IMG/VR virus record: IMGVR_UViG_3300037156_000068
Span: 1-63,314 of that record
Length of the DNA stretch: 63,314 nt
From: a virus
Direction: 5' to 3' (one strand)
This document shows positions 14,075-56,708 of the stretch, piece after piece. A model generated the notes under the pieces. That model did no database searches. It saw only the letters and a list, made by a program, of their open reading frames with translations, and was not told the origin of the DNA. Within the stretch, counting starts at the first letter, position 1. Each line of letters starts with the position of its first letter. The position numbers and the translations under genes are program-made.

Positions 14075-14446
14075 TTATTTAGTAAGACTGGCCCTAAACG
14101 CCACAACCTGAGCATCCACCGCAGCCTTCAGCGCATTAGCGGCAGTAACGATGGCCGCATCAATAGCCGGAGTTACAACACCAGCTACAGGCCCCACAGC
14201 ACTCGCTAGAAGCCCATTAACTGTAGTCTCAACGGTAAGGGTCGCCGGACCAATAAGACCGCCCAGAAGGGTGTCTGCGGCCCCAATGGCATTGCTCGCA
14301 GCCTGCTTAAGGTCTGTAAGGATTGCAGCCTCAGCCTGAGTGGCCACTGTGCTGCCGCTAAAGGCCTTGGTAACATCCGCCTCAATACGAGTAACGGCAG
14401 TTTGCCATGTAGTTTTGCCGGTCCAGGCGTCTGATAGAATAGACAT
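14075..14446 (-). CDS. Ala/Thr-rich hypothetical protein, last gene of the late block
   Basis: 123 residues, very rich in Ala, Val and Thr (LIGPATLTVETTVNGLL, AIVTAANALKAAVDAQV). It could form amphipathic helices. The start overlaps the upstream stop (TAATG), so it is coupled to the holin-like gene. Position at the end of the late transcript and next to membrane proteins suggests a lysis or virion accessory role, but I recognise no family. Confidence 0.6.
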   Translation of the reverse strand: MSILSDAWTGKTTWQTAVTRIEADVTKAFSGSTVATQAEAAILTDLKQAASNAIGAADTLLGGLIGPATLTVETTVNGLLASAVGPVAGVVTPAIDAAIVTAANALKAAVDAQVVAFRASLTK

Positions 14447-14709
14447 TAGTTTGTATCTCCTTGTTCAGTTTGGGTTGTGCTAACTTTGGCCTTCTCATTC
14501 ATGAAGGACCAGATCAAACCAACCAAGATTAATCCCCCATTAACGCCCCAATTAACAAAGGCCTGCTCCGCAGTATTTGATGGAAGCACGCCCTTTGCAA
14601 GCATGTAAGTCCCAGCAGCCACCATAAGGTGCCTGAGTTGCCCCGAGATGAGCCAACGAATTACAGCAGGTGTGGTATTAGCGATGTCCTGAATTGGGTC
14701 ATCAGTCAT
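14446..14709 (-). CDS. Holin-like membrane protein
   Basis: 87 residues. RWLISGQLRHLMVAAGTYMLAKG and, after a short loop, a GGLILVGLIWSFMNEKAK segment make two hydrophobic helices with charged ends. The RHLxxAxGxxxxxKG ... GxxxxxxxxWSxxxK pattern resembles a common phage holin family. Holins open the inner membrane to time lysis. The lysozyme gene lies 16 kb away in the same block, which is unusual but not prohibitive. Confidence 0.68.
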   Translation of the reverse strand: MTDDPIQDIANTTPAVIRWLISGQLRHLMVAAGTYMLAKGVLPSNTAEQAFVNWGVNGGLILVGLIWSFMNEKAKVSTTQTEQGDTN

Positions 14710-15009: not shown

Positions 15010-16197
15010 TTAAAAACCATTTGAATCTATCCAGTTCTTAACCCAGGTGGCAATGCCGGTGTAGCCATTGGTAAAATTTGGGTTGGCCGCACTCGTAGCG
15101 TTCTGTCCTGGGTGGATCACATCAACTGCCGTGAAAGCAGAACTACTGATATGGGTTACTGCCGTGGTCGAGGCATAGCCCCGAGTGCAGGTGTACGACC
15201 CGCTGGAGCCACCGGAAATGAATACCTTCTCGGAGCCCACCGTCACGACGTTGCCGTTAGCTAGGGCTGCGGTCGTCGTAAACGCGCAGGTGCTTGTGTC
15301 TGCTATCGCACCGGTCGTGCCGCTAAGGTCCCCAGCGCGCAGAGAATAAGGCGGAACATCGTGGCCGTGGTCGATGACGTCAGCAGCGTTAGAGGGGTCG
15401 TAGGCATTTATTAGGTTGGTCCGGATATCAATCACGTGGGAGCCGTAGGCAGAGATGAGCGCGGTGTTCAGGGCAATGATCGAGTTGTAGTCCGCCTGCC
15501 CTGACCATTGAGTTGTCTCGGCGTCATTAAGCAGCGTCATGACCATCCAGCAGGTCGTGTAGCTTTGGGCCGTCGCTACCGATGCTGCGATATCCGCCAG
15601 AACTTGGGTGGGCGCGGTGAGGCCATTGTTGATCCCCTCCTCGATGACGATGCAGCCGTTGAGCTGGGTCCGCGTGACGGGGGTCCAATTAGTTCCGGCC
15701 GAGACAGAAATGGGCGAAGCGGGGAAGTTGATCGGCGTGAAAAGGTAGAGATGGGTTCCAGGGTCGATACAATAGCCCAGGTAGGGCGTGCCCGAGAGAA
15801 CGACTTGAAGAATGATGCCGGGGGCAAATGCGCGATAACAGGGATCGTAGAACGCCGGAAAGTGGACAGCGACTTGGCCGCTCGTCGGAAGGGTGAACCC
15901 GACATCGAACGTTTGCTGAGTCTGGCCAGGATAGGCGTTCATCCGCACGGCGATCTGGCCAGAACCCTGGCCGCCGATGCCGTTGTTGTTGACGATGAAC
16001 GTGGGTTTCTGGCCCAACAATTGTCCTGGCCAAGTGACGCCGCTGGCGTCTTGATTTCCCGCAGTGATGCTATCGCCGAAACCCGAGACTTGGCCTTGGG
16101 ACAGACCCGCTCCAAGCGAGATGCTCTGTGCGTAAGCGCCAAAGCTAACCGCCCAACTAAGAACAAGACATAGAAGGAATCTAGCGATCACGGTCAT
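15010..16197 (-). CDS. Exported SGNH/GDSL-hydrolase-like tail-region protein
   Basis: About 395 residues from the ATG at 16197, overlapped by no upstream gene and preceded by AGGGAT. A Sec signal peptide is plain (FLLCLVLSWAVSFGAYAQ, cleavage expected after AYA). The mature part has GFGDSITAG at about residue 40, the SGNH nucleophile block, GIGGQG (block II-like Gly) and DVIHPGQNA near residue 365 with the catalytic Asp-His. SGNH enzymes de-esterify, often removing acetyl groups from polysaccharides, and are known in phage tail proteins. A signal peptide on such a protein is odd. The region looks more GC-rich than its neighbours. Confidence 0.78.
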   Translation of the reverse strand: MTVIARFLLCLVLSWAVSFGAYAQSISLGAGLSQGQVSGFGDSITAGNQDASGVTWPGQLLGQKPTFIVNNNGIGGQGSGQIAVRMNAYPGQTQQTFDVGFTLPTSGQVAVHFPAFYDPCYRAFAPGIILQVVLSGTPYLGYCIDPGTHLYLFTPINFPASPISVSAGTNWTPVTRTQLNGCIVIEEGINNGLTAPTQVLADIAASVATAQSYTTCWMVMTLLNDAETTQWSGQADYNSIIALNTALISAYGSHVIDIRTNLINAYDPSNAADVIDHGHDVPPYSLRAGDLSGTTGAIADTSTCAFTTTAALANGNVVTVGSEKVFISGGSSGSYTCTRGYASTTAVTHISSSAFTAVDVIHPGQNATSAANPNFTNGYTGIATWVKNWIDSNGF

Positions 16198-16201
16198 ATC
16201 C

Positions 16202-16969
16202 CTAGTGCTGGAAGCAATGATAGTCGATCTTTTCACCCGTCGTCGCCGTCTGGGTAATCGTGATCGCGGTGGTGGAAATGGTATAGGCGAACGCCAGGAG
16301 CTGGGTTTGCGGCGTGACGGTACAGAATGGGGCATTAGTCTTCGTGCTGGCGAAAGTGATGACTAGAGAGGTTCCCGATGTGCCAGTGGTCGCCTCGCCT
16401 GCCGTGTCTGTCGAGCCTGAAGCGATAGTGGGCGTACCCGTGCCGGTTACGGTGGGGATGGCCCCTAAGGCAAAGACGCCTAGAGGAGCGGCACGAAGCG
16501 CTTCGGTCGCGGTCCCCGAAACATCCACGATTAACGAAACATCTCCGGCCGCGTCCGCACCAATCCCTGCTTTCGCGTCCGCACGATTGGGGGAAAAGGT
16601 GGGTAATGTTGCCGTTGCCCCCTGCCCCTGTAGGCGGAAACTCGTTGCAGTGGAGGAAAGCAGATCGACATATACGATCGTCCCAAACGTGCCCCATTGC
16701 TGCACCCGCGTCCCGCTCGCGATCATGACAGGATTGCCGAGTGCCGCACTGCCGATGCCTGTGGTGGCATCTCCTTTATCCGGATTGATTGTTGGAACCG
16801 TTGCCGACGCGGCTACATTGGACAGGGAGAAGCTATCCGCCGCAGACCCGGTGATGGTGCCCACTGCACAGATGATGCCAGGAGCACAACCCCCGCCAGC
16901 GTTGATCGTTTGGGCTTCAGCCGCACCGGCAAAGGCAAGGAGAGTTAGGACGCTTGCGAAGACTCTCAT
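16202..16969 (-). CDS. Exported fibre-like protein with signal peptide
   Basis: 255 residues. The N-terminus MRVFASVLTLLAFAGAAEAQ is a classical Sec signal with AEA cleavage. The mature protein is Thr/Ala/Gly-rich and ends in a domain of the type seen at phage fibre tips (TPTIASGSTDTAGEATTG, FCTVTPQTQLLAFAY, GEKIDYHCF). It overlaps the next gene upstream by 4 bp (ATGA) and lies four bases before the SGNH gene, so the three are one translational unit. Function inferred as host-surface or virion-tip binding. Confidence 0.72.
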   Translation of the reverse strand: MRVFASVLTLLAFAGAAEAQTINAGGGCAPGIICAVGTITGSAADSFSLSNVAASATVPTINPDKGDATTGIGSAALGNPVMIASGTRVQQWGTFGTIVYVDLLSSTATSFRLQGQGATATLPTFSPNRADAKAGIGADAAGDVSLIVDVSGTATEALRAAPLGVFALGAIPTVTGTGTPTIASGSTDTAGEATTGTSGTSLVITFASTKTNAPFCTVTPQTQLLAFAYTISTTAITITQTATTGEKIDYHCFQH

Positions 16970-17445
16970 TGGTAGACCGCCGAAAAGGCGTGGCCTGTGG
17001 TGGGAGCCGTGATGGTGATTGCGTCCGTAACGACAATGCTACCGCTGGCGCAACTGAACGTGCCGCCTGCTAGAAGATTGAACACCGTCGTTGCACCTAC
17101 CCTGACATTTAACGCTTCAACGGCAGTCGTCGGGTTCTGGATCAGGCACCCCTTGCGTATAGAGCTAGCAGCGATGGCCGTTTGATATGTGCCACCAAGG
17201 GTAACGGTGCCGGACGCATCCGTTGATGTGGCTCCGCTAGGCCTAGTGACTACAGGAATATTCCCACTTGAATCTGGTGCGACACAGTGCAGTGGCGAGT
17301 TAGGATCGCACACACCAACATCCTGGGCAATCACAGGATATGGTGCAGCATGAGCCAACGGGGACAGAGCCAAGATGCACAGAAATGCCCCTAGGCTAAC
17401 GAGCTTAGGCCGATAGGCCGCGCTTCTTGAAAGCTTATTGTGCAT
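16966..17445 (-). CDS. Exported small beta-rich protein with signal peptide
   Basis: 159 residues from the ATG at 17445, chosen because GGGAG lies about nine bases upstream. Longer in-frame starts overlap the fibre gene. The N-terminus (basic RSAAYRPK, then LVSLGAFLCILALSPLAHAA) is a Sec signal. The mature part has four Cys (VCDPNSPLHC, KGCLIQ, FSCASG), which could form disulfides in the periplasm. It looks like a small beta-sandwich; no family recognised. Confidence 0.68.
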   Translation of the reverse strand: MHNKLSRSAAYRPKLVSLGAFLCILALSPLAHAAPYPVIAQDVGVCDPNSPLHCVAPDSSGNIPVVTRPSGATSTDASGTVTLGGTYQTAIAASSIRKGCLIQNPTTAVEALNVRVGATTVFNLLAGGTFSCASGSIVVTDAITITAPTTGHAFSAVYQ

Positions 17446-17479: not shown

Positions 17480-18592
17480 TTATCTTGCTCTTCGTGCGCC
17501 AATGAAGCCATAGGACGTTACGGTCCCACTACCAAAATTAGAGTAAGCACCTAGATATACTGTGGTTGTGGTGGCCAAACTTAGACGAATAGTCCCGGTA
17601 ATAATAACCAAGCCACTTACGCTACTTGAATTAGGGGCACTTGAGTTATAGCCTCCCGCATTCGGGGGTGAGGGCCTCGTTGCAGATACTGTACTGATCC
17701 AAGTGATAGCATTAATCGCTGCCGAACTGCTGCCAGCGAATCCAACGTTTCCGTTAACATCCCAGTCACCGGCAGTGAGACTGATGGATGCGACATCAGC
17801 AGCCACTGTGGATGTGAGCGAGACTGCACTGCCAAAGGCTCGGGTCTCGCTAATATACTCACCGACATAACCGGCAGCCGCATCATCATTAGTCGTTGTG
17901 CCGAGTAAGTGGCCTCCAATTGTAATCGTACCTGATCCGGTAATCGGCCCACCCGAGGTGGTGAAGCCGGTAGTGCCACCCGAAACTGCAACACTCGTGA
18001 CGGTACCTGTGCCCGAGACAGAACCCCAGGCAGGCACACCACCAGAGATTAGGAGCACGTCTCCCGTACCACCAACACCTAAGCGGGTAGCGCGGTTAGT
18101 CCCATTTCCAACGATAAGATCGCCAATAGATGTTATAGGCGATAGGGCATTAAAGGCGGCAGCGGCAGTATTCTCACCAGTTCCCCCATTTACCAGTTCG
18201 AGTGTTCCCGCAAGAGTGATGGTTCCTGAGGTTGTGATGGGGCCTCCTGAAGTTATCAGACCCGTGGTTCCACCTGACACATCAACACTAATAACGCCAC
18301 CACCAGAACCCCCGGAAGCCGTGGCGAGAGTTACCTGATCCCAGATGAGATTCTCTAGACTGTCATTAACGATCTGACGATAATAGCCAGGACCCCAGAT
18401 CGCTGCTGACCCTAATGAGTCTAGGGTGATTGGGTTAGTGTTAGGGATAACACCCGCATAATCGCTGTATGAAGTTTTAGGTGTGAAGCCACCTGGGATA
18501 TAAGTGAAAACCTGCCCACCGACGAGTGGTTGGCCATTCCCATCAAAGAATTGCTGACGGCCATTGGGGAGAAGGGCGACGGTAGTGGTCAA
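17480..18592 (-). CDS. Tail fibre, Ser/Thr/Gly-repeat type
   Basis: 370 residues, TTG start just after the upstream stop with AGGGA at good spacing. The N-terminal domain (LLPNGRQQFFDGNGQPLVGGQVFTYIPGG as two parts, NPITLDSLGSAAIWGPG) is a virion-attachment domain shared with the tail spike at 36404. Repeats GGTTGxxTSGGPITxSGTITxxG follow twice, then a C-terminal head of beta type. It lacks a signal peptide, unlike the spike. Likely binds host receptor. Confidence 0.82.
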   Translation of the reverse strand: MTTTVALLPNGRQQFFDGNGQPLVGGQVFTYIPGGFTPKTSYSDYAGVIPNTNPITLDSLGSAAIWGPGYYRQIVNDSLENLIWDQVTLATASGGSGGGVISVDVSGGTTGLITSGGPITTSGTITLAGTLELVNGGTGENTAAAAFNALSPITSIGDLIVGNGTNRATRLGVGGTGDVLLISGGVPAWGSVSGTGTVTSVAVSGGTTGFTTSGGPITGSGTITIGGHLLGTTTNDDAAAGYVGEYISETRAFGSAVSLTSTVAADVASISLTAGDWDVNGNVGFAGSSSAAINAITWISTVSATRPSPPNAGGYNSSAPNSSSVSGLVIITGTIRLSLATTTTVYLGAYSNFGSGTVTSYGFIGARRAR

Positions 18593-23715: not shown

Positions 23716-24780
23716 CTATGCTTCCTTCAATTGAAGACGATAATACGTTCCAAATGGTTCAGCACCCATTCGACGATAGAGTGTTGAGATCCTGTCTCCG
23801 GCACCTCTAATTCCAGCTCTCATAACCACTTCAGACACTCCACGATTGCGCAATCCCTCAGCGGCTTTACGTTGTAATTTTAAACCAATCCCGGGGTAAT
23901 CTGGCGAACTGTAGAATGCTGTGTGACAGCCAGAGAGACGACCGGTAGACTCTAGAGACTCACCAATAATAGTGACTAAGTATCCGAATATGCGTCCGTT
24001 AGATTTCGCCACTGTGATCTGTAACGCACCAGCATTGTCATAGGACTGTAGTAGGGCTAGATTCTTATTCGCATAGTTATCAGGATTCTCACCGACCTCA
24101 AGGCAATGCTCTTTCATCGCGAGTTGACCAGTGTCTAGTAGATTTTTAAAGGATTCAAACTCTAATACTAATTCTGGACCTGTGGTTACGCTACTAGCGC
24201 CAAGGAGCATCAAACTCTTCTGACGGGCGATAGCCGCTAGGCGTTCTAGTTGTGGCCTGTAAGCTGTAACATAGCGGTTAAGGGCGGCCACATCAACCTG
24301 GATGTTCTTGGCATTAAGTTCTGCCCACCGTTCACTGTCATGTTTGTGTGGGAGAAGATGCTCGAACAAATTTGCGCAGACCTCCTCATGAACTAGATCC
24401 TCGAATTGATAGGACTTACATTTGGTCCGTAGTTCAATTTGGTCTAACTTACGATCTAAATACTTAAATAGTTTAACTGTCTGCTCCAGATCATCGCTGA
24501 GCCCCGCGTTGACCGCACTACGGGCCGCCTCTTCCGGGTCTCTGCGTATAGTGACTATTTTTAAATCAGACTTCATATGGAGAGCCAATCTCCAGAAGGG
24601 TCCCACAGCAGTTTCAACTGTTCCTGTCTTAGGTTGATTAAACCAGGACTGAACATCCTCTAACTGGCGCATGTACTGAAGTTCATCATGGCCACAGTAC
24701 CAGTCATCATATGACAGGAACTCGGATAACCACGCGGTTCGAGACCTCGGTAATGCTAGGATAAGGAATTGCTGAGTCAT
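23716..24780 (-). CDS. Sulfotransferase-like/GNAT acetyltransferase fusion
   Basis: 354 residues, two domains. The N-terminal part begins LILALPRSRTAWLSEFLS, the PAPS-binding strand-loop-helix of sulfotransferase-like P-loop proteins, with IVTIRRDPEEAARS as the 3'-phosphate-binding strand. From about residue 250 a GNAT fold appears (ALQITVAKSNGRIFGYLVTI, SSPDYPGIGLKLQRKAAEGL as two parts, GAGDRISTLYRRMGAEP). GNAT-like proteins are known at the T7 gp13 position. The fusion with a sulfotransferase-like domain in a structural block is unusual. Substrate unknown; either domain may be structural only. Confidence 0.68.
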   Translation of the reverse strand: MTQQFLILALPRSRTAWLSEFLSYDDWYCGHDELQYMRQLEDVQSWFNQPKTGTVETAVGPFWRLALHMKSDLKIVTIRRDPEEAARSAVNAGLSDDLEQTVKLFKYLDRKLDQIELRTKCKSYQFEDLVHEEVCANLFEHLLPHKHDSERWAELNAKNIQVDVAALNRYVTAYRPQLERLAAIARQKSLMLLGASSVTTGPELVLEFESFKNLLDTGQLAMKEHCLEVGENPDNYANKNLALLQSYDNAGALQITVAKSNGRIFGYLVTIIGESLESTGRLSGCHTAFYSSPDYPGIGLKLQRKAAEGLRNRGVSEVVMRAGIRGAGDRISTLYRRMGAEPFGTYYRLQLKEA

Positions 24781-25205: not shown

Positions 25206-26533
25206 TATGTTTCACTTGGTTGGAACCAAGCATCAGCTCCGTTAAGTGCAGTAAAGATCGGTAAGTCCCAGAAAACTTCAAAGACCCTATAGCGCCCCTG
25301 GCCCAGTTGGGTGAATAAGACAGATCGATTGAATTGACCTGTAGCCCCAATTCCGCAAGTTCTAGGGTTGCCCCAGGTCTTACCTCTGTCATCACTATAA
25401 CGAAGAGAGATACGAGACTCGTTACTTACGAGTGTATCAGCCATCTCACCCACATCCATATCTAAGATAAGGCGAGACCATTCGATGCGTTGGCCGCCGG
25501 TCTCCTCTATGGGGAATCCTCGCCTGCGCACGATAGGTGAGCTGTTATCCGTATAGGCATTTAAGTCCCACTCGTACAGTTGTCCATTCTGCCAGTCTCC
25601 AACTACTATAGAACCATAAGCAGCCGCACAGTCGTTAGCCCTGATCCTGTGCTCCTCACCATTGTCATCGGTCCAAGTACGTTCGTGCCACATCTCCTCG
25701 GCCACATCATAGACCCATGTGGCGTCCGCAGAGGGGAAGGTCAGGACATAAAACGTATGACCGAGTTGTTGATAGGTAAATCCAATTGCATCAGTAGGGT
25801 CAGCATACTGTTGAATTTGCTGTTCAATGGCATGAGTGGAGATGCGCTTGGCTGCGTACTGATTGCCCGTGAAGACCATACAGCGGCCCTGGCGATCCTG
25901 AGACAACCAGTAGGTATTAAGATCCTGTCTAGCGATGCTGTATTTAGCGCAACAGCCGTGTTCAATGAAGACGCCTGGTAACTCTGCGAATGAGAAGTTG
26001 GCATTGCCAGCATCGTACCAGACTTCCGTAGTCTCAGTTCCGATAAGCCACACTTCACGGTGCATAACAATGACCGCTTGGATTGGATCGGGGTTGCCAG
26101 ATTTAGCGGCAATATCAAGTGGATCAAAAGCCGCTGCGGTTGCCCCCGGGGTTATTCCGCCTAAGAGGTTTGAATACGTCACATTTGATAGGGATGTGTA
26201 CCACTGATTAGTGCCTGGACGATTCAAGACAAAGAAGGTATCTACGAAATCAACTCGATCAGCCCCGTAGAATGCTCCAGTACCATTATCATTAATACTA
26301 GCCATGGCATGGGTAGTCAGGTCGATTGCACTTCCTAGGTTAGTCCCATCTACAATTACAATAGCCAGACCATTATCCGCCATGGATACGGGTGTTGTTA
26401 GATTGAGGTCCGCACTACCAAGTTCCCCTAGAACTGTTCGTGTCCAGTTTGGAGAAGTATAATAGACATACTGACCAATAACCTCAAAGAGTTGGCCATT
26501 TGATGCGGTGTATGAGCAGCGATGAATTGGCAT
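25205..26533 (-). CDS. Tail DNA-stabilisation protein (P22 gp10-like), C-terminal piece of a split gene
   Basis: 442 residues. HRCSYTASNGQLFEVIGQYV, then SMADNGLAIVIVDG, YGADRVDFVDTFFVLNRPG and MHREVWLIGTETTEVWYD are the body of gp10-like head-closure needle-adaptor proteins. The start lacks the usual N-terminal segment (RIPLTGGMYQARSVIASAQR), which is found in the preceding gene. The two genes are in the same frame and separated by just one TAA codon followed by this ATG. It could be a separate protein that reassembles with its N-terminal partner, or be made by readthrough. Confidence 0.82.
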   Translation of the reverse strand: MPIHRCSYTASNGQLFEVIGQYVYYTSPNWTRTVLGELGSADLNLTTPVSMADNGLAIVIVDGTNLGSAIDLTTHAMASINDNGTGAFYGADRVDFVDTFFVLNRPGTNQWYTSLSNVTYSNLLGGITPGATAAAFDPLDIAAKSGNPDPIQAVIVMHREVWLIGTETTEVWYDAGNANFSFAELPGVFIEHGCCAKYSIARQDLNTYWLSQDRQGRCMVFTGNQYAAKRISTHAIEQQIQQYADPTDAIGFTYQQLGHTFYVLTFPSADATWVYDVAEEMWHERTWTDDNGEEHRIRANDCAAAYGSIVVGDWQNGQLYEWDLNAYTDNSSPIVRRRGFPIEETGGQRIEWSRLILDMDVGEMADTLVSNESRISLRYSDDRGKTWGNPRTCGIGATGQFNRSVLFTQLGQGRYRVFEVFWDLPIFTALNGADAWFQPSET

Positions 26534-27088
26534 TTATGGTGAGGTGTAAGTTAAGTTGACGGTATTACTATCAGCCGCAGTACTCGCCGCATCCGTCACA
26601 GTACATTTGATGTACGCATCGAATGAGTTAAATGGTGTACCGATGGTGATTGTGTAACCTGTCGTCTGCGCCGTGGTGGACCCTGTAAATGTCCCGCTGC
26701 CAACACCACCAGTGCTGACTTCATCCCATAGATAGGTATAAGGAGGTGTACCACTACTAGGTGTGACTGTCAGAGAGAATGTATGGGCAGCATCACTACC
26801 AGAGAAATTCTGGTCATTGCCGATATTAGCCGATAAGGGTGGAGGAGGAGGTGGCGGCGGGGGAGGCGGCGGGGGGGGCGGCGGGGGAGGCGGCGGAGGG
26901 GGCGGTGGTGGTGGAGAGGGCGTATCAGCTAGCAGTGTCAGGCCAGGGGTCAATTGCATTGTTACGGGAAAAGGTGTCTCACCCCGAGTATTCGCCTCCG
27001 GATATAGATTAACGCAGCGTTGTGCGGAGGCGATTACAGATCTCGCCTGGTACATTCCGCCAGTTAATGGTATACGCTGTTGAGCCAT
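26534..27088 (-). CDS. gp10-like N-terminal segment fused to poly-proline and an Ig-like domain
   Basis: 184 residues. Residues 1-57 are the start of the gp10-like tail factor (RIPLTGGMYQARSVIASAQR, TPGLTLLADTP). Then come 26 consecutive Pro and an Ig/PKD-like beta-sandwich of about 100 residues (AHTFSLTVTPSSGTPPYTYL, AYIKCTVTDAASTAADSN), ending at TAA directly before the ATG of the body. Relatives have these parts in one uninterrupted protein. Ig-like domains on virions often bind carbohydrate weakly. The poly-Pro run would be a stiff linker and may stall ribosomes without EF-P. Confidence 0.78.
   Translation of the reverse strand: MAQQRIPLTGGMYQARSVIASAQRCVNLYPEANTRGETPFPVTMQLTPGLTLLADTPSPPPPPPPPPPPPPPPPPPPPPPPPPPLSANIGNDQNFSGSDAAHTFSLTVTPSSGTPPYTYLWDEVSTGGVGSGTFTGSTTAQTTGYTITIGTPFNSFDAYIKCTVTDAASTAADSNTVNLTYTSP
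26837..26914. repeat. GGN codon run encoding 26 prolines (minus strand)
   Basis: 26 consecutive triplets on the plus strand end in GG, with only A, C, G or T in the first position. The minus strand reads CCN for proline. It includes an eight-G homopolymer and may form a G-quadruplex on the plus strand. It is prone to slippage and to sequencing error. Confidence 0.9.
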
Positions 27089-27810
27089 TAATATCCGTCA
27101 CTATAGACATTGTAACCGCGCTGAGCACCAATCACAGCGGCGGGCATCTTCATCGTGGGGACCTGTACGTTAGCCCCTCGGATAACATTTAGTGCGTCTT
27201 TAGCCAGCTCAATCATAACTGGATCAGGAGGCATCCTATACGCAACTCGCAGACGAACCTGAAGATTGTAGGACAGGGCCGCCTCATACTCAGGAGGTAA
27301 GTTGATCGTCTGAGTTAAAGAGGTGAACGCAGTGAGTTGGTTCTTTACGAGTATGTGTAATTCATATAGATTGGCCTTGGGTACTGGCCACGCGAAGACT
27401 GTACCTGTGGGCCAGTTGGAATCATAAAACATGATAGATGGCCAGGTGCCCATAGTCTTTAGGCGGATACGGTTATAGTCTTCATGCGAGGGTAGCAATT
27501 GTAGGGGATAGTCGATTTGTTGTGTATTACCTGTTGCAATCTGGCGCAGGAAGCACCCATCCTCTAGCCTGTCTGGCCTGGGCGTATTGAATTGTTGCCC
27601 AGTACCAACTGTATAACTCTCTCCCCCGGTGGTAACGACGGACACATCTGTTAGATTATAGATCAACCAACGCTTACGATTCCATTGTCCAATCATATAA
27701 TTGACACGGATCAGCGCATTCTGAATGTCTTCCGCAGTGGCAATCTGACCCACGCCGAGGATACCGGAGTCGATTAGCGCTAGGGACAGAAGGTCATTCA
27801 CAGTGGTCAT
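27088..27810 (-). CDS. Head-to-tail adaptor, P22 gp4-like
   Basis: 240 residues. It starts TTVNDLLSLALIDSGILGVG and continues AEDIQNALIRVNYMIGQW, then YTVGTGQQFNTPRP. This is the pattern of P22 gp4-type tail accessory factors that bind under the portal and close the head. It comes just before the gp10-like genes as in P22 (4-10). A P22 gp4 muramidase activity cannot be read from the sequence. Confidence 0.85.
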   Translation of the reverse strand: MTTVNDLLSLALIDSGILGVGQIATAEDIQNALIRVNYMIGQWNRKRWLIYNLTDVSVVTTGGESYTVGTGQQFNTPRPDRLEDGCFLRQIATGNTQQIDYPLQLLPSHEDYNRIRLKTMGTWPSIMFYDSNWPTGTVFAWPVPKANLYELHILVKNQLTAFTSLTQTINLPPEYEAALSYNLQVRLRVAYRMPPDPVMIELAKDALNVIRGANVQVPTMKMPAAVIGAQRGYNVYSDGY

Positions 27811-27820
27811 TTAGTTCTCT

Positions 27821-28258
27821 TTACTCGAAAGGGTTGGCAGTCGGGTCGAACCCGGCGTCTTCAATCGCTTTGGTAATCTTAGCGGGGCCCCAGCGCTTAT
27901 CCACGGGAACCTTGTTTACGGAGGCCAGGGTCAGAAGACGAGTACGCTCATCCTCTTCGCTGATAACTTCCTCGCCACCGAGAGCTTCACGCTCCTCTTC
28001 GGCATTATTCACCAGGACATAGTGCTTAGGCTTATCGGGGTGCGGATAGACATGTTTAGGGTACTCATAGAACTGGTAGGGCATATCGTCTCCTGAAGTG
28101 AATTGGCCGGGGAGATCCCAGCGAGATCGGTTTATACGCGAGAATGTAGTTTGACGGATGGCTGGTGGCGTAGTTTTAGCGTGACCACCAGATGCGGAGT
28201 GACCATTACTGCGAACAGATTTGGCCGCCCCTAAATCATCATCATCTTTACTAGACAT
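27821..28258 (-). CDS. Virion-associated hypothetical protein
   Basis: 145 residues between the coat and adaptor genes. Asp/Ser/Lys-rich, probably disordered N-terminus, then a central PYQFYEYPKHVYPHPDKPKHYVLV region in two parts and an acidic helix. The C-terminus (NKVPVDKRWGPAKITKAIEDA) resembles a short SAP- or HeH-like helical motif. Position suggests a minor head protein. Confidence 0.6.
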   Translation of the reverse strand: MSSKDDDDLGAAKSVRSNGHSASGGHAKTTPPAIRQTTFSRINRSRWDLPGQFTSGDDMPYQFYEYPKHVYPHPDKPKHYVLVNNAEEEREALGGEEVISEEDERTRLLTLASVNKVPVDKRWGPAKITKAIEDAGFDPTANPFE

Positions 28259-28285
28259 TCTCGCGCATAGCCCTTAGTTTAAGAC

Positions 28286-29515
28286 TTAGACGGCATCCGC
28301 CACGATGACGGCCCATTCAGGTCGGATATAGAGATAACCGAATAGAACGTCAGCACGAGTGACCGTTTGGTCAGTACCAGGCACGTACGAGCGCAGGACA
28401 CGCATCGACACACCATCATACTCCTTACGGCTGCACTCAGTCATCGGAGGCTTCTCAAGGTCGGCAGTGACCATCGTGATCGCTTCAGGGGCGAAGGCGA
28501 TGTTCTTGCGGAACGTTGAGCCAGCATTCGTAACCAGGCTGATTACGGCGCTGTTGGCCGGGCTGATATCAACAGTTTGGTACTGCTGAGAGTTCTGGCC
28601 GGTAGTGGCTTGATAGCCCGCGCCGCCGGGGACAATAGCCGGATAGATCGGGATAGACGTGGCACCAGACAGGACGTTAGAGGTCACGACGAACTGACGA
28701 ACAGTTTGCAGTGATTGCTTAGTCACGCGGTTCACGGCATTCACGGAAGCAATGGTGATGATGTCACCTTGGTTCAGCGTACCGGTAATAGCATTAACAG
28801 TCAGGGTAGTACCGGTCTGGCTCGCACCGTTAACAGTACCGGCGGTAAAGGTGCCGGTGACGTGTTTGATGGTGGTTTGGTCTTCCAGCCAAGTGTAACC
28901 AGCCGCATTATAGACCGAGCCGTCACGGTACTGCTTAGAGATATCCGTGGCGGGGTTCAGTAGACCAGACAGCGAGCCGGTGAGGCGGGCCATCGAGTGC
29001 GGGTCTAGGACGATTTTACGGTCCAGTAGCGGGGCGGAGTTATCGGCCAGCAGAGCGCGGCTGTCTAGGACTTGTTGAAGGCCCGGGGACAGAACGTTGT
29101 TGCCAGAGTCGAAGTTGGCGACCAGGTTACAGACACCACCTTCAGAACCAGCCATGATCGAGCTGGCGATGTTACCAGCAAGGTTGTTCATGGCGGGGAG
29201 CAGGAAGCGCTCAGCATAGTCATCGACACTTAGGCTTTGCTCAGCCGAGCTGAAGGACAGGTCAACGTGACGTTGAGTGGCCAGAGCCAGGGTGAGTTGT
29301 TGCTCCTGGCTGTCTTGAGCCTGTAGGCCGGGACCGTCAGTAACAGTGTAGTCAAGGGGCAGTCGGACGCGCAGAGACGCACCGATTTTAGCGCCAGTAA
29401 CAGCAAAGGAGCTGTCGTATTGGGTGCTAAGATTCTGCATAAAGGCGTTGGAGTTCTTGAAGATCATTACCGCTTCGGCAGTGATCATGCTGATAGTAAG
29501 AAGGCTATTAGCCAT
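28286..29515 (-). CDS. Major capsid protein, P22 coat family
   Basis: 409 residues. The N-arm (NSLLTISMITAEAVMIFKNS), then GASLRVRLPLDYTV, QRHVDLSFSSAEQSLSVDD and, after residue 230, an inserted beta-domain (VNGASQTGTTLTVNAITGTL) match the P22 coat plan of an HK97 fold with an I-domain. It makes the icosahedral shell around the scaffold at 30827. ATG 29515 has AAAGGGAA upstream. The leader upstream is long (234 bp) and holds a tRNA-like element. Confidence 0.9.
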   Translation of the reverse strand: MANSLLTISMITAEAVMIFKNSNAFMQNLSTQYDSSFAVTGAKIGASLRVRLPLDYTVTDGPGLQAQDSQEQQLTLALATQRHVDLSFSSAEQSLSVDDYAERFLLPAMNNLAGNIASSIMAGSEGGVCNLVANFDSGNNVLSPGLQQVLDSRALLADNSAPLLDRKIVLDPHSMARLTGSLSGLLNPATDISKQYRDGSVYNAAGYTWLEDQTTIKHVTGTFTAGTVNGASQTGTTLTVNAITGTLNQGDIITIASVNAVNRVTKQSLQTVRQFVVTSNVLSGATSIPIYPAIVPGGAGYQATTGQNSQQYQTVDISPANSAVISLVTNAGSTFRKNIAFAPEAITMVTADLEKPPMTECSRKEYDGVSMRVLRSYVPGTDQTVTRADVLFGYLYIRPEWAVIVADAV

Positions 29516-36403: not shown

Positions 36404-38548
36404 TTATGGCCCAACGTTGCCCGTGACGGACTTCTTAACACCAGATCCGCCGTCGGCAACACCATTTGAGTTGGTGGCTCCGCACATATTGTTGGCGATT
36501 GTGTAGTAGTTAGACGTTCCAGTATTCACGATCACGCAGTAGGTAGATGTTGGATCACCGGGAATTCCGAGCATATTTGAGTTAATCTGGAAGTTCTGAA
36601 CATTCGCCCCGACAGCAATGCCCCCAGAAGCATTACCAGAGATGACATTCCCAGTTAACTGCACACCGCCAGAACCATTTATAAGTACGCCATAAGTGGT
36701 ATTATCTCTAATATGGCTCGTCCCGACACTAGCAAAACCCGAAAATCCACTAGCAAATGTTAATCCGTTGCCAGAGATGGCAGTGCTAAGGTATGAGTTG
36801 CTAATCTGAATACCAGTACCACCATTAAAGACTGCGCCATTGACAGAGTAATCACATTCGAGATCGGATACGATCAGAAACATGCTGCCGCTATCCACTT
36901 GAAGACAACTACTCCCGCTCCCAAGAACATCGCCAGAAGAGTTGGCTGAAGTCATGGCCCAGGTATTGCAGCCGGAGCCCATGTGGAAACTAATGGTGGA
37001 TGTATTTGTAGAGTTATAGCCTAGGGATACGTTAGTCCAACGAGTACCATATACTTGAGAGGCCCCGGAACCGTCACATAGGAAGGCGGATGCCCCTGTC
37101 GGATTAACCCCATATATATTGGTAAACTTAGTTTCAGAGGCCCCCGTGAGGTGGACAAAGCCGGGAATACTGCTAAAATACAGATCATTATAGTGGCCTA
37201 GTGAGGCACCTGCGGAGACGCCCACAGCAAGACCATAACCAGTTGTCCAGCTTCCGCCGTTAAGGATGGCGAGCCCGCTGACATTGACATTATAAGCATT
37301 GACTGAGATAAAGTCGCCGGATGCGGCGTAATAATAGAAGTTGGTCGCCTGAGGGCCGGAGCCCACAATGTTGCAGCCGGTAACGTTATCATTGATACCC
37401 GAGTTGAAGCGGAAGGTCCCAGCTCTGAACCAGATGGTGCCGCCCGTACTTGCACAGGCCGCCAGGGCATTATTAAATGGTGTGACGTTATCAGAAGCGC
37501 CCGTCGGATCGCCTCCGTACGTACCGACCACATCGTAAATCGTCGCGTATGTCCCGCCACCGCCACCGCCACCGCCAGGGCAACCCGTGGCCATTGTGCA
37601 GACCGCAGATCCGCTTAGAGTAATGCTGCTACCAACCGTTAGGGCTGAGGGAATTGCAATCGTGGAGGCGCTTAGATGGATAGTACCATTAAAAGAACTT
37701 CCATCCCACAGACCCCAGGTCCAGCTATTTGCCGTACTGTCCTTTTGGAGTGAGATCGCAGGATTCCCGGTTCCGTAGTTAGATGGTACCCATGCGTCCC
37801 AGACTGTATTTGCAGTTGCAGTGCCTGCTATGTGCTGATTATATTGGGTCCATGTATTTGTGAGAGCCTGAAATGCTAGGACTGTGTTATTCGCCGAGCA
37901 AGTGCCCGAAGTTGTAATCGCACCGCCAGAGAGCCCCGTACCACAGATCACACTAGTCACTGTGCCGCTGGTGGCAATCGCGTGCCATGCCCCATCATCC
38001 CCCAGGAAGCGGCCAGAGACGGTTGTGGGAGAGGGGACCAAACCATTAGTCGTAGATAGGAAAGTCTTGGTCAGGTCGAGAGCTAGGGTACCCGAAGTTG
38101 TGATAGTGCCACCGGTGAGGCCAGTTCCTGCGGAAATTGAGGTTACTGTCCCTGCACCCGCGCCAGCGGCTGGAGATGTCGTCACCCCGTCCCAGATTAC
38201 AGCACCAGAAGCGCTCTTAAGGATTTCACGATAAGAACCTTGGCCCCAGATTAAGGCGGACCCGAGGGCATCCAAGGTGATTGGATTGGTATTAGGGGTA
38301 GTCTCATTAGAGTCTTGCCAAGTGCCCTTATTCGTAAGGGTGGACGGAATATAAAAGCCAACAGTACCACCCACGATAGGCTGACCATTGGCATCAAGGA
38401 ACTGCGTCCGGGCATTAGGCAAGATGGCCGCAGTCTGCGCGCTGGCCACAGACGGTACAGACACGGGTGCAATAGTTGCACATCCGATTAAGGCTAACGC
38501 ACTGAGAATTGTTGATAATTTAATAATCAGACTTACCTTGCCAGCCAT
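36404..38548 (-). CDS. Tail spike with signal peptide and pectin-lyase-like beta-helix
   Basis: 714 residues. Residues 1-37 form an export signal (KVSLIIKLSTILSALALIGC, Cys23 in a LIGC lipobox, then ASAQ as a possible signal-peptidase I site). Residues about 42-110 are the same attachment domain as in the fibre at 17480 (LPNARTQFLDANGQPIVGG, NPITLDALGSALIWGQG). From about residue 345, YDVVGTYGGDPTGASDN starts a pectin-lyase-like helix that ends near 700, as in depolymerising spikes. The gene overlaps the terminase gene by 16 bp. The leading signal is unexpected in a virion protein. Confidence 0.85.
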   Translation of the reverse strand: MAGKVSLIIKLSTILSALALIGCATIAPVSVPSVASAQTAAILPNARTQFLDANGQPIVGGTVGFYIPSTLTNKGTWQDSNETTPNTNPITLDALGSALIWGQGSYREILKSASGAVIWDGVTTSPAAGAGAGTVTSISAGTGLTGGTITTSGTLALDLTKTFLSTTNGLVPSPTTVSGRFLGDDGAWHAIATSGTVTSVICGTGLSGGAITTSGTCSANNTVLAFQALTNTWTQYNQHIAGTATANTVWDAWVPSNYGTGNPAISLQKDSTANSWTWGLWDGSSFNGTIHLSASTIAIPSALTVGSSITLSGSAVCTMATGCPGGGGGGGGTYATIYDVVGTYGGDPTGASDNVTPFNNALAACASTGGTIWFRAGTFRFNSGINDNVTGCNIVGSGPQATNFYYYAASGDFISVNAYNVNVSGLAILNGGSWTTGYGLAVGVSAGASLGHYNDLYFSSIPGFVHLTGASETKFTNIYGVNPTGASAFLCDGSGASQVYGTRWTNVSLGYNSTNTSTISFHMGSGCNTWAMTSANSSGDVLGSGSSCLQVDSGSMFLIVSDLECDYSVNGAVFNGGTGIQISNSYLSTAISGNGLTFASGFSGFASVGTSHIRDNTTYGVLINGSGGVQLTGNVISGNASGGIAVGANVQNFQINSNMLGIPGDPTSTYCVIVNTGTSNYYTIANNMCGATNSNGVADGGSGVKKSVTGNVGP

Positions 38549-47634: not shown

Positions 47635-47723
47635 CCTCTGAAACCATTGATAAGATGGGGGCATATGTTTTGTGTTCTCTTGTGTTTGTAATCGGCCTGA
47701 TTGCAATTGTGCAGTCTTGGTAA
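47631..47723 (+). CDS. Membrane microprotein (30 aa)
   Basis: ATG 47631 with GGAGG at good spacing, overlapping the previous stop (ATGA). One helix AYVLCSLVFVIGLIAIVQSW. Precedes the lipoprotein gene. Confidence 0.45.
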   Translation: MTSETIDKMGAYVLCSLVFVIGLIAIVQSW

Positions 47724-47725
47724 AA

Positions 47726-48289
47726 ATGGATCATAAAATCATGAACAGACTCTCTGTATTTATTGCGGGCTTGAGCCTGCTTGCGCTTGCCGCCTGTGAT
47801 GTTCAAAGCACAGCCACATCAGCCGATCAAAAGGCTGCGGTACAACAAGAGGATATCGCCAAGCGTGCTCAAGATGAGGTGGGCATCTACACACCCACGC
47901 ACTTTACTCGCAAGCGCCTAGCCAATCGTATCGGTCAGATGCTTGATGACCCCACACTGGCCACTGTGAGCTACGCACAGGGCCTTGATGGCCGTCTCCG
48001 GTGCATTGGCCCATCCATGGGCTTCCCCCTGCCAGCGGCCACTCAGACGACCAGCCCAACTAAGTGGGGCGACCCACCTAACTACTACCAAGGCTACCAG
48101 AGCGTTCAGGTCCCGCAATCCGAGCCGGATCAACTATTTAGCCCCAGCTCTGAGGATGCGACCTGGATTCTGCTTGTGAACCCTAAGACTGGCCAAGCGA
48201 GCCCCGCGTATTTCGAGGGCCACGTTCAAGCCTTCCTAGCCTTAAACAAGCCTGATCCGAGCCTGATCGCACAGGACTGCACCCGTTAG
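47726..48289 (+). CDS. Predicted lipoprotein
   Basis: About 187 residues from ATG 47726, or 182 from ATG 47741. The N-terminus has FIAGLSLLALAACDVQS, an n-region of basic residues, an h-region and an LAAC lipobox, so the mature protein would start with lipid-modified Cys and probably reach the outer membrane. The rest is soluble (GIYTPTHFTRKRLANRIGQM, EDATWILLVNPKTGQASPAY). It could block superinfection or be half of a spanin-like pair, though it lacks coiled-coil. No family recognised. Confidence 0.72.
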   Translation: MDHKIMNRLSVFIAGLSLLALAACDVQSTATSADQKAAVQQEDIAKRAQDEVGIYTPTHFTRKRLANRIGQMLDDPTLATVSYAQGLDGRLRCIGPSMGFPLPAATQTTSPTKWGDPPNYYQGYQSVQVPQSEPDQLFSPSSEDATWILLVNPKTGQASPAYFEGHVQAFLALNKPDPSLIAQDCTR

Positions 48290-48998: not shown

Positions 48999-49346
48999 AT
49001 GAAATACGTAGCAGCCTTTATAGGCATTCTCCTGCTCCTAGCCATCGCGGGCCTTGGCACATCTTGGTTTGGCCTAGTCACATCCCGCCCGATGGCAAAG
49101 TACAGCAAGGAGACTGAGCGCCAGGTGTATCTCAACTCCGTGGCACACCAGCAGGGCGCTATGGCTGGTCTGGCCATCGACTGCTCAAACATGCGTAATG
49201 CCAGCACCCCCGCCCCGCAGCGCCATGCCTTCGCCTCCCTGGTCATCCAGGACGCTGTGGCCTATGCGGGAGACCAATCGTTGCCGTCGGATGGGCGCGT
49301 TTGTGTCCGTGAGGCTAACGATCTCCTAGCCGTGGCGTTGGGGTAA
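48999..49346 (+). CDS. Membrane-anchored exported protein (115 aa)
   Basis: ATG with AGGA in the end of the previous gene. N-terminal helix YVAAFIGILLLLAIAGLGTS, then a periplasmic-looking part with AGLAIDCSNMRNAS and GRVCVREANDLL, two Cys that may pair. Probably anchored in the inner membrane facing the periplasm. Function unknown. Confidence 0.58.
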   Translation: MKYVAAFIGILLLLAIAGLGTSWFGLVTSRPMAKYSKETERQVYLNSVAHQQGAMAGLAIDCSNMRNASTPAPQRHAFASLVIQDAVAYAGDQSLPSDGRVCVREANDLLAVALG

Positions 49347-55331: not shown

Positions 55332-56708
55332 ATGTGTGGTATTGTTGGTGTTGCTGGGTGGGTAGGGCATCGAGAGAAGGCCGTATTCTCTAACCTGCTA
55401 GGTTGGGATGTTGTTCGAGGTCCCCATGCTACTGGTGTGGCGGCTATTCGGGGTGGGGCTAACGAAGTTCATATCTTAAAGCGGGCGATGCACGCCTATG
55501 ATTTTATGGACCTAAAAGCCTATGACCCTACGATTGATAACTCAAAGATTCTAATCGGTCACAATAGATTTGGGACTGTCGGCGGTAATTCGAGTAGGAA
55601 CGCCCACCCATTTGTATTCGACAATGTTGTTGGTGTCCATAACGGAACCATCCAATATTCTGATCGTAAGGTTTTGAAAGATCATGACAAATTCGATACG
55701 GACTCGGAGGCCATCTACTATAACATCAGTGAACTCGGTCCAAAGGAGGCCCTTAAAGACCTTAAGGGTGCGTGGTCTCTCGTGTGGTGGGACCGCGTGG
55801 AACATAAGCTTAACTTCCTTAGGAATAAAGAGCGTCCTATGTATTGGACACTTTCCGAGACGGGAAAGGAGCTCTACTGGGCATCTGAGTCTGGGATGCT
55901 TCAAGCCGTCTTGGCTCGTCATAGTGTCAAGCACGGAGCGGTCTACGGCACACCAGAAGACACGATGCTATCGTTTACCATTCCTGATGATTATAACACT
56001 GTGATAGCTAGCCCTGAGCGCACGGAGGTGAAGGGAGCGCTCCCTTTCGTGTTTCCGGTTCATCAAAGGGGTCTGGGGGGCTACGAGAATTGGGACGAGG
56101 AGGGATGGCGCGGGGGGTATCACAGTCGCAACAAGGTACGAGACACCACAGCGTTACCCGGGCATGGCACAGGGGGTCAGAAATCCCTGTCGGATTTGCG
56201 GTCAACGGGGCAGGGCAGCTCATCCCAACCACCAGCCTTAGTCGTAGGGCCCTCAGAAAAGCCAGCCGAAGAGGCCTCGTCGGAAAGGCCCAACCTCAAG
56301 AAGCCTGAACGAGGGGCCATGTCTGATCTGGTGGAGACGGTTCAAGCGAAGATCAGGGAGTATGGTGGGGGAGATAGCTCTGTCCCTTTCACGCCAGGAC
56401 GCGCACCAGATACGCCAGGTGATAAAGTCGTTCATCTAGAGGATAAGATGCGGGGGACAGCGGCCAGATTTGTCCCGGCCTTTAATGACATTTATATCGG
56501 CCGAGAGGATTTCGATAAGATGTCAAAGAATGGCTGCGCCTACTGCGAAAAGGGCGTGCTATTCCAAGACATTCTCCAAAAGCGTGAGACCATCCATTGG
56601 CTCAAGCGAGACGCCTTCTTATGCACTGAATGTATGGATGATCCGGACATCCTTGAGTACCTGGCCGGAATGAACATTGAACTTCCACAAAGGAAAAAGT
56701 CGAATTAA
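55332..56708 (+). CDS. Class II glutamine amidotransferase with extra C-terminal zinc-like domain
   Basis: 458 residues. It starts MCGIVGVAG with the N-terminal nucleophile Cys. GHNRFGTVG and VGVHNGTI are the glutamine-binding and oxyanion loops of the Ntn amidotransferase fold, and DTDSEAIYYNISE follows. Residues about 250-345 are disordered and Pro/Ser/Gly-rich. The C-terminal 70 residues have CAYCEKG and FLCTECMDDP, a likely zinc site not normal for this family. It supplies ammonia to an amide-forming partner, probably the ligases that follow. Confidence 0.86.
   Translation: MCGIVGVAGWVGHREKAVFSNLLGWDVVRGPHATGVAAIRGGANEVHILKRAMHAYDFMDLKAYDPTIDNSKILIGHNRFGTVGGNSSRNAHPFVFDNVVGVHNGTIQYSDRKVLKDHDKFDTDSEAIYYNISELGPKEALKDLKGAWSLVWWDRVEHKLNFLRNKERPMYWTLSETGKELYWASESGMLQAVLARHSVKHGAVYGTPEDTMLSFTIPDDYNTVIASPERTEVKGALPFVFPVHQRGLGGYENWDEEGWRGGYHSRNKVRDTTALPGHGTGGQKSLSDLRSTGQGSSSQPPALVVGPSEKPAEEASSERPNLKKPERGAMSDLVETVQAKIREYGGGDSSVPFTPGRAPDTPGDKVVHLEDKMRGTAARFVPAFNDIYIGREDFDKMSKNGCAYCEKGVLFQDILQKRETIHWLKRDAFLCTECMDDPDILEYLAGMNIELPQRKKSN

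Follow-up and report, generated by a model that had tools for sequence, protein, structure and literature searches.

The stretch analysed here (the window) is a 63-kb virus record from IMG/VR, IMGVR_UViG_3300037156_000068, in which three consecutive genes of the tail region, A, B and C, and a gene for a tailspike-like protein of 714 amino acids begin with predicted export signals. We suggest that the four products serve a P22-like phage in host recognition, as proteins of the fibre-tip, SGNH esterase and tailspike types, and that they would be exported and then mounted on virions late, outside the cytoplasm, a reading to which we give about an even chance. The structural module of the window, on the minus strand, is P22-like. 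Profile matches identify a terminase, a portal protein (phrog_156, 2.4e-111), a major head protein, an adaptor and a head closure protein (phrog_578), and the module is completed by ejection proteins and a tail fibre. A, B and C are placed between this fibre, of 370 amino acids, and a small membrane protein, which is followed by a Pam3-type holin.

A sequence-only reading had placed the starts of A, B and C at 17445, 16969 and 16197 on the minus strand, and had given them Sec-type N-termini with the cleavage sites AHA, AEA and AYA. The coordinates and starts are correct, and the signals are supported. We scored signal peptides with a rule-based Sec score, calibrated on six E. coli signal peptides that range from 8.1 to 10.7. 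A scores 10.9, B 9.2 and C 9.5, and together with the 714-residue protein they span 9.2-10.9, inside or slightly over the range of the controls. All four N-termini have a basic n-region, a hydrophobic core and AxA before the mature start, as expected for Sec and signal peptidase I. The signal of A comprises residues 1-33 (17347-17445; MHNKLSRSAAYRPKLVSLGAFLCILALSPLAHA, cleaved before APYP), with GGGAG upstream of the gene. In B it comprises residues 1-19 (16913-16969; MRVFASVLTLLAFAGAAEA, cleaved before QTIN), and the start overlaps the stop codon of A as ATGA. In C it comprises residues 1-23 (16129-16197; MTVIARFLLCLVLSWAVSFGAYA, cleaved before QSIS), with AGGGA upstream; an alternative GTG start, two codons further on, has the better spacing and would still retain the signal.

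In the window, 6 of 76 non-overlapping open reading frames reach a Sec score of at least 8, namely A, B, C, the gene of the 714-residue protein (36404-38548), a lipoprotein-like frame (47672-48289) and a small membrane-protein-like frame (48999-49346). The claim of three signal-bearing tail-region proteins stands for A, B and C, and the number becomes four with the 714-residue protein. It should be noted that when other signal N-termini are shuffled with their composition preserved, about 10% of the shuffles score at least 9, so that a lone signal prediction is weak; we discarded internal high-scoring starts in L056 (541 aa) and L022 (2007), which we regard as false positives. The clustering of signals in tail genes and their conservation in relatives are beyond chance. 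Export of A, B, C and the 714-residue protein, as predicted from these features, is the best-supported step and is well supported.

In the 714-residue protein (36404-38548, minus strand) a signal is joined to a virion-anchor domain. It starts with MAGKVSLIIKLSTILSALALIGCATIAPVSVPSVASA followed by QTAAILPNARTQF, with a Sec site, ASA before Q, after residue 37 and an alternative lipobox, LIGC, with Cys23. From residue 46 it matches the phrog_26190 anchor domain (7.4e-13), and the gene has no good start codon downstream of the signal. The 370-residue tail fibre (17480-18592, minus strand; phrog_11393 tail fiber, 2.3e-11; phrog_26190, 3.1e-10) is its cytoplasmic counterpart, with no signal, no Cys and the phrog_26190 domain at its very start. 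Two proteins of the window thus share an anchor, one with a signal and one without. The same domain stands at the extreme start of the tail spike of Xanthomonas phage PBR31 (annotated as such) and of proteins of Rhodoferax phage P26218 and Pseudomonas phage PAE2. Among about 65 copies, environmental ones and those of the window, five are fronted by a signal (in the window, L121, L132, L177 and L182) and the rest start directly. The 714-residue protein had no match among viral contigs and no PDB match.

A second anchor, the fibre N-terminal domain xIIGxLPxxLTNGTTADAxQVMANFN found in L024, L022 and L031, was used as query. We fetched 80 loci and removed near-copies before counting, which left 17 non-redundant forms with a signal and 27 without. 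For 13 of the 17 signal forms the distance from the predicted cleavage site to NG is exactly 11 residues, and a second AxA gives the same spacing in three of the remaining four; in the signal-less forms, 11 residues before NG after Met removal is the commonest position. The signals themselves are varied (MSMTRFLAALLVWLGLSTAQA before QIIG, MKRLLFALMLLWCWPAFA before QAPIIG, MTRIKALILAFFMMLPVVAQA before QVIP). Such a constant register across diverse signals indicates that cleavage would restore an ordinary fibre N-terminus. Forms with a signal (L060, L108, L051) and without (L064) occupy the same operon slot, right after a structural gene of about 550 codons, and each of 12 records out of 12 holds one significant copy of the domain. 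Tail-collar proteins are also fronted by a signal (L028 and L029, PF07484 9.7e-12 and 1.7e-7; L108), and the signal-bearing protein of L024 gave a tblastn match to tail-collar and short-tail-fibre genes. A query with a signal-bearing fibre N-terminus gave no match in named phages and plasmids, and a scan of genome contigs gave a single contig, in a Chloroflexi bin, and no clear host information. Trees of the two anchor domains, with too few alignment columns to establish that the signal arose more than once, have four signal changes each, one of them forced.

The phages that carry this fibre domain have structural modules unlike that of P22. One of them, G002 (46.5 kb), encodes TerL, a connector (phrog_332), a head protein (phrog_1357) and ejection-type genes, and appears to be complete since it has a 100-base terminal repeat. 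Seven of its genes have export signals: five stand in a row behind the connector gene, and the other two follow the structural gene of about 550 codons. No signal-less fibre candidate is left in G002; all its candidate fibre genes have a Sec or a twin-arginine (Tat) signal. One of the five carries a twin-arginine signal, SRRLFLVRAALAAPA, in front of a lectin-like Laminin_G_3 domain, and G007 has a Tat-like signal, SRRRFIAGSSALIAAPA. That two export systems are used speaks for selection on export as such. Tat-type signals (SRRLFL and SRRRFI) lie on genes in the structural region at L201:11107-11928 and L204:16644-17852, one with a Laminin_G_3 domain.

Acetobacter phage phiAX1 (LC644973), from Acetobacter sp. 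ATCC 21760, is an inducible temperate phage that its source paper predicted to be incomplete (PMC8566455). Two signal-bearing genes (26418-27383 and 27387-29312) lie between its adaptor (phrog_637) and head closure (phrog_578) genes. The second (L198, LC644973.1) encodes a full-length GH66 glucanase (PF13199, 2.9e-84) with no recognised anchor domain. Its deposited start (27492) cuts off the signal, and the start that includes it lies just past the preceding stop codon; proteins annotated in this way may be misread as bacterial.

Since such signals recur in unrelated phages, we suggest that the host-binding parts of some phages leave the cytoplasm before they are put to use. More broadly, several unrelated groups of tailed phages may export fibres and tailspikes by Sec and Tat, with signal peptidase restoring the N-terminus and mounting at or after lysis. 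We hold this wider proposal tentatively, at somewhat below even chances.

A fibre-like nature of A, B and C is supported, and their mature parts contain 4, 4 and 6 Cys. Gene A (159 aa, 16966-17445, minus strand) encodes, after the signal, a Cys-containing linker and a C-terminal beta-sandwich domain of about 90 residues. Its homologues with 46-64% identity (L002, L007, L008 and L013) differ in N-terminal sequence and retain the signal. The AlphaFold2 model of A has a mean confidence (pLDDT) of 73.7, with about 90 over most of the C-terminal domain; it matches an uncultured Caudovirales protein in BFVD (E 1.9e-9) and has weak matches only in the PDB (Ena pili and cupins, E >= 3.7e-3). As modelled, A forms a small beta sandwich, of a type that is common among uncultured phages. 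In L027 a signal-bearing gene with the A domain lies between Mu-like GP46 (1.6e-23) and Baseplate_J (4.5e-58) genes, a context which indicates that the trait crosses virion types. In L015 an A-type domain without signal is followed directly by a signal-bearing gene.

Gene B (255 aa, 16202-16969, minus strand) encodes the signal, a QTINAGGGCAPGIIC module and a fibre-tip-like C-terminal domain. B-type genes follow A with an ATGA overlap in several phages. The signal and the Cys-containing QTI module recur in L022, L023, L030 and L031, with differing C-termini in L023 and L031, and the C-terminal third of B is 68% identical to L030 over about 105 residues.

Gene C (395 aa, 15010-16197, minus strand) encodes an SGNH hydrolase or tailspike esterase-like mature part. 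The match to Lipase_GDSL_2 (3.6e-6, 28 bits) is under the curated cut-off of 32.9. The SGNH-like domain that the sequence-only reading had seen in C is nevertheless borne out, as all the blocks GDS (residue 41), G, GxN (GIN, 188) and DxxH (DVIH, 359) are kept and C has a profile match of 9.4e-7 over about 220 residues to PDB 9sij, a 'Tail spike protein'. A relative in L003 conserves GDS, IGGQ, GxN and DxxH, and the relatives of C in L002 and L003 are also signal-bearing. The AlphaFold model of C is of low confidence (pLDDT 36). The signal is thus conserved in close relatives of A and B and in relatives of C. Relatives that start after the hydrophobic segment, which the sequence-only reading had named as evidence against a signal, exist for the A domain and for the two anchor domains, yet as distinct forms. 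Pfam and PHROG profile searches found no virion-anchor or attachment domain in A, B or C. We also considered Llp-like superinfection-exclusion lipoproteins, small proteins with a lipobox and neither an enzyme nor a fibre domain; this class was rejected for A, B and C because they lack a lipobox, and for the 714-residue protein, which has the lipobox LIGC but an anchor domain too.

In the mechanism that we propose, the four proteins would be made late and exported via the host Sec pathway. Signal peptidase I, or possibly signal peptidase II for the 714-residue protein, would remove the signal and leave a normal fibre N-terminus, and the proteins would then fold in the periplasm. Once the holin opens the inner membrane, virions would encounter the exported fibres, whose anchor domains would attach, so that the last assembly step would take place outside the cytoplasm. 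En route, they may also bind the surface glycan of the host itself, or trim it. A holin-like gene (14446-14709, minus strand; PF23987, Pam3 gp28 holin family, 1.1e-7) lies just downstream of A-C. The endolysin, a phage lysozyme (30118-30555, minus strand; PF00959, 5.9e-13), has no signal peptide, so a hole-forming holin is expected. P22 tailspikes attach last to otherwise finished particles, also in vitro. That the proteins are in fact exported, cut, folded in the periplasm and attached afterwards is what we infer, and attachment is the weakest of these steps in the case of A, B and C, where no anchor domain is recognised.

The signals, their recurrence, their precise joins to anchor domains and the late-operon position are features of the sequences themselves. 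The exact joins, the operon position, the lack of a signal-less fibre in G002 and the tail spike match of C speak for a virion role. Several points weigh against it. Virion membership of these proteins is a prediction, and the signal-less fibre with the same anchor at 17480-18592 could by itself serve the virion of the window. C and the GH66 protein of phiAX1 look like complete enzymes with no recognised anchor, as secreted enzymes would, and the lipobox of the 714-residue protein could tether it to a membrane instead. Signal-bearing and signal-less fibres do not differ significantly in Cys content (p = 0.17), and for this reason we dropped disulfides as a general argument for periplasmic folding. 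A Cys pair within the anchor domain, present in 3 of 17 signal forms (L031, L059 and L113) and in none of the 27 signal-less ones, is suggestive.

The main alternative is secretion without a part in the virion. The proteins would be esterases, depolymerases and lectin-like adhesins that reach the periplasm or the medium late in infection, where they would strip or mask host glycan so that progeny leave without re-adsorbing, or would block superinfection. We consider this a substantial possibility, at clearly less than even chances. It fits the SGNH motifs kept in C, the full-length signal-bearing glucanase of phiAX1 and the retention of a signal-less fibre in the window. It also has precedents. 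Phage PBR31 gp40 is likewise an exported phage SGNH esterase near lysis genes (PMC10975493), although it is a single enzyme after those genes and the window has a run of fibre-like genes. Pantoea WceF is likewise an exported enzyme with a tailspike fold, acting on exopolysaccharide; it differs in being bacterial, in having a Tat signal and in lying within an exopolysaccharide synthesis cluster (PMC7949094). Secretion leaves unexplained the exact joins of signals to virion-anchor and collar domains, and why the apparently complete G002 has no signal-less fibre candidate for its virion. As to whether the exported proteins later join virions or act as secreted enzymes or decoys, the virion role is slightly favoured. 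The sequence-only reading had left secreted effectors and virion parts assembled by an unusual route side by side; the family as a whole leans to virion parts, given the exact joins between signals and virion-anchor domains in other phages, and for A, B and C themselves there is no lean.

A mixed arrangement, in which fibre anchors join virions and C and GH66 stay soluble, export being shared since the same surface polymer is targeted, would suit the adjoining of fibre-type and enzyme-type signal genes in one cluster (window, L022, phiAX1); such a split is more complex than either single role, and we regard it as improbable. More improbable still is that the N-termini do not function as signals, being hydrophobic segments of virion proteins or due to wrong start codons or chance: despite the rule-based prediction and the rate at which shuffles reach the threshold, chance and wrong starts are rejected because the cleavage register is constant and the 714-codon gene has no good downstream start, and diverse signal sequences keep the same features and Tat-type signals occur on structural-region genes in two phages.

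Fibres, spikes and esterases are known kinds of phage protein, and the export signals on them are what is new. P22-like podophage tailspikes and fibres (phrog_26190 and phrog_11393; the PBR31 tail spike) have the same N-terminal anchor and late operon, and agree with the window proteins in the types of domain at the C-terminus (SGNH esterase, probable beta-helix). They begin at the anchor domain, whereas the 714-residue protein has a Sec signal before it and A, B and C are signal-bearing. The tail spike of PDB 9sij has a profile match to about 220 residues of C, which adds a signal and is otherwise nearly the enzyme part alone. In the textbook view, tailed-phage assembly is wholly cytoplasmic, and we know of no tailed phage that uses cleaved Sec signals on virion proteins. 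The coat proteins of filamentous phages are virion proteins with cleaved Sec signals; these phages differ in being extruded through the membrane, and their proteins are unrelated to those of the window. Our literature search found no report of signal peptides on tail fibres, though further papers could exist.

An extracytoplasmic assembly step of a tailed phage would be new, if true. Export of host-binding parts before use would explain how depolymerases and lectins are kept off glycan precursors in the cytoplasm and how disulfides could form in fibres, and it would account for the bacterial export signals on the fibre genes of these phages. If the proteins are secreted instead, they would form a widespread class of effectors with which phages edit the surface of the host at a late stage of infection.

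The genes C and B and the C-terminal domain of A form a cassette (15011-17235, minus strand), probably exchanged horizontally, with 94.7% DNA identity over 2228 bp to contig L002/L022, the only DNA match between the window and that contig. Its edge lies inside gene A, where the C-terminal domain begins. The G+C content at third codon positions is 63-67% in B and C, whereas the fibre and ejection genes next to them have 44-45%. Based on the isolated match and this deviation, the cassette has probably moved recently, carrying the signals of B and C. An exported family of 175 residues (L022:5301-5828 and L031:7439-7966, 66% mutual identity, no Pfam match) follows the fibre genes, and L060 and L108 have similar-looking short signal-bearing genes after the fibre.

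Among the ejection and tail genes of the window, 23716-24780 (minus strand) encodes a protein of 354 residues whose N-terminal part resembles sulfotransferases (PF00685, 0.002, below cut-off; phrog_10855 'hydrolase', 1.8e-12) and whose C-terminal part is of the acetyltransferase type (phrog_1249). The lipoprotein-like frame at 47672-48289 (N-terminus SVFIAGLSLLALAAC after an upstream stretch) is outside the structural module, in the same plus-strand region as the small membrane-protein-like frame at 48999-49346. At 55332-56708 (plus strand) the window encodes a glutamine amidotransferase of the fructose-6-phosphate aminotransferase type (phrog_4736, 2.2e-76).
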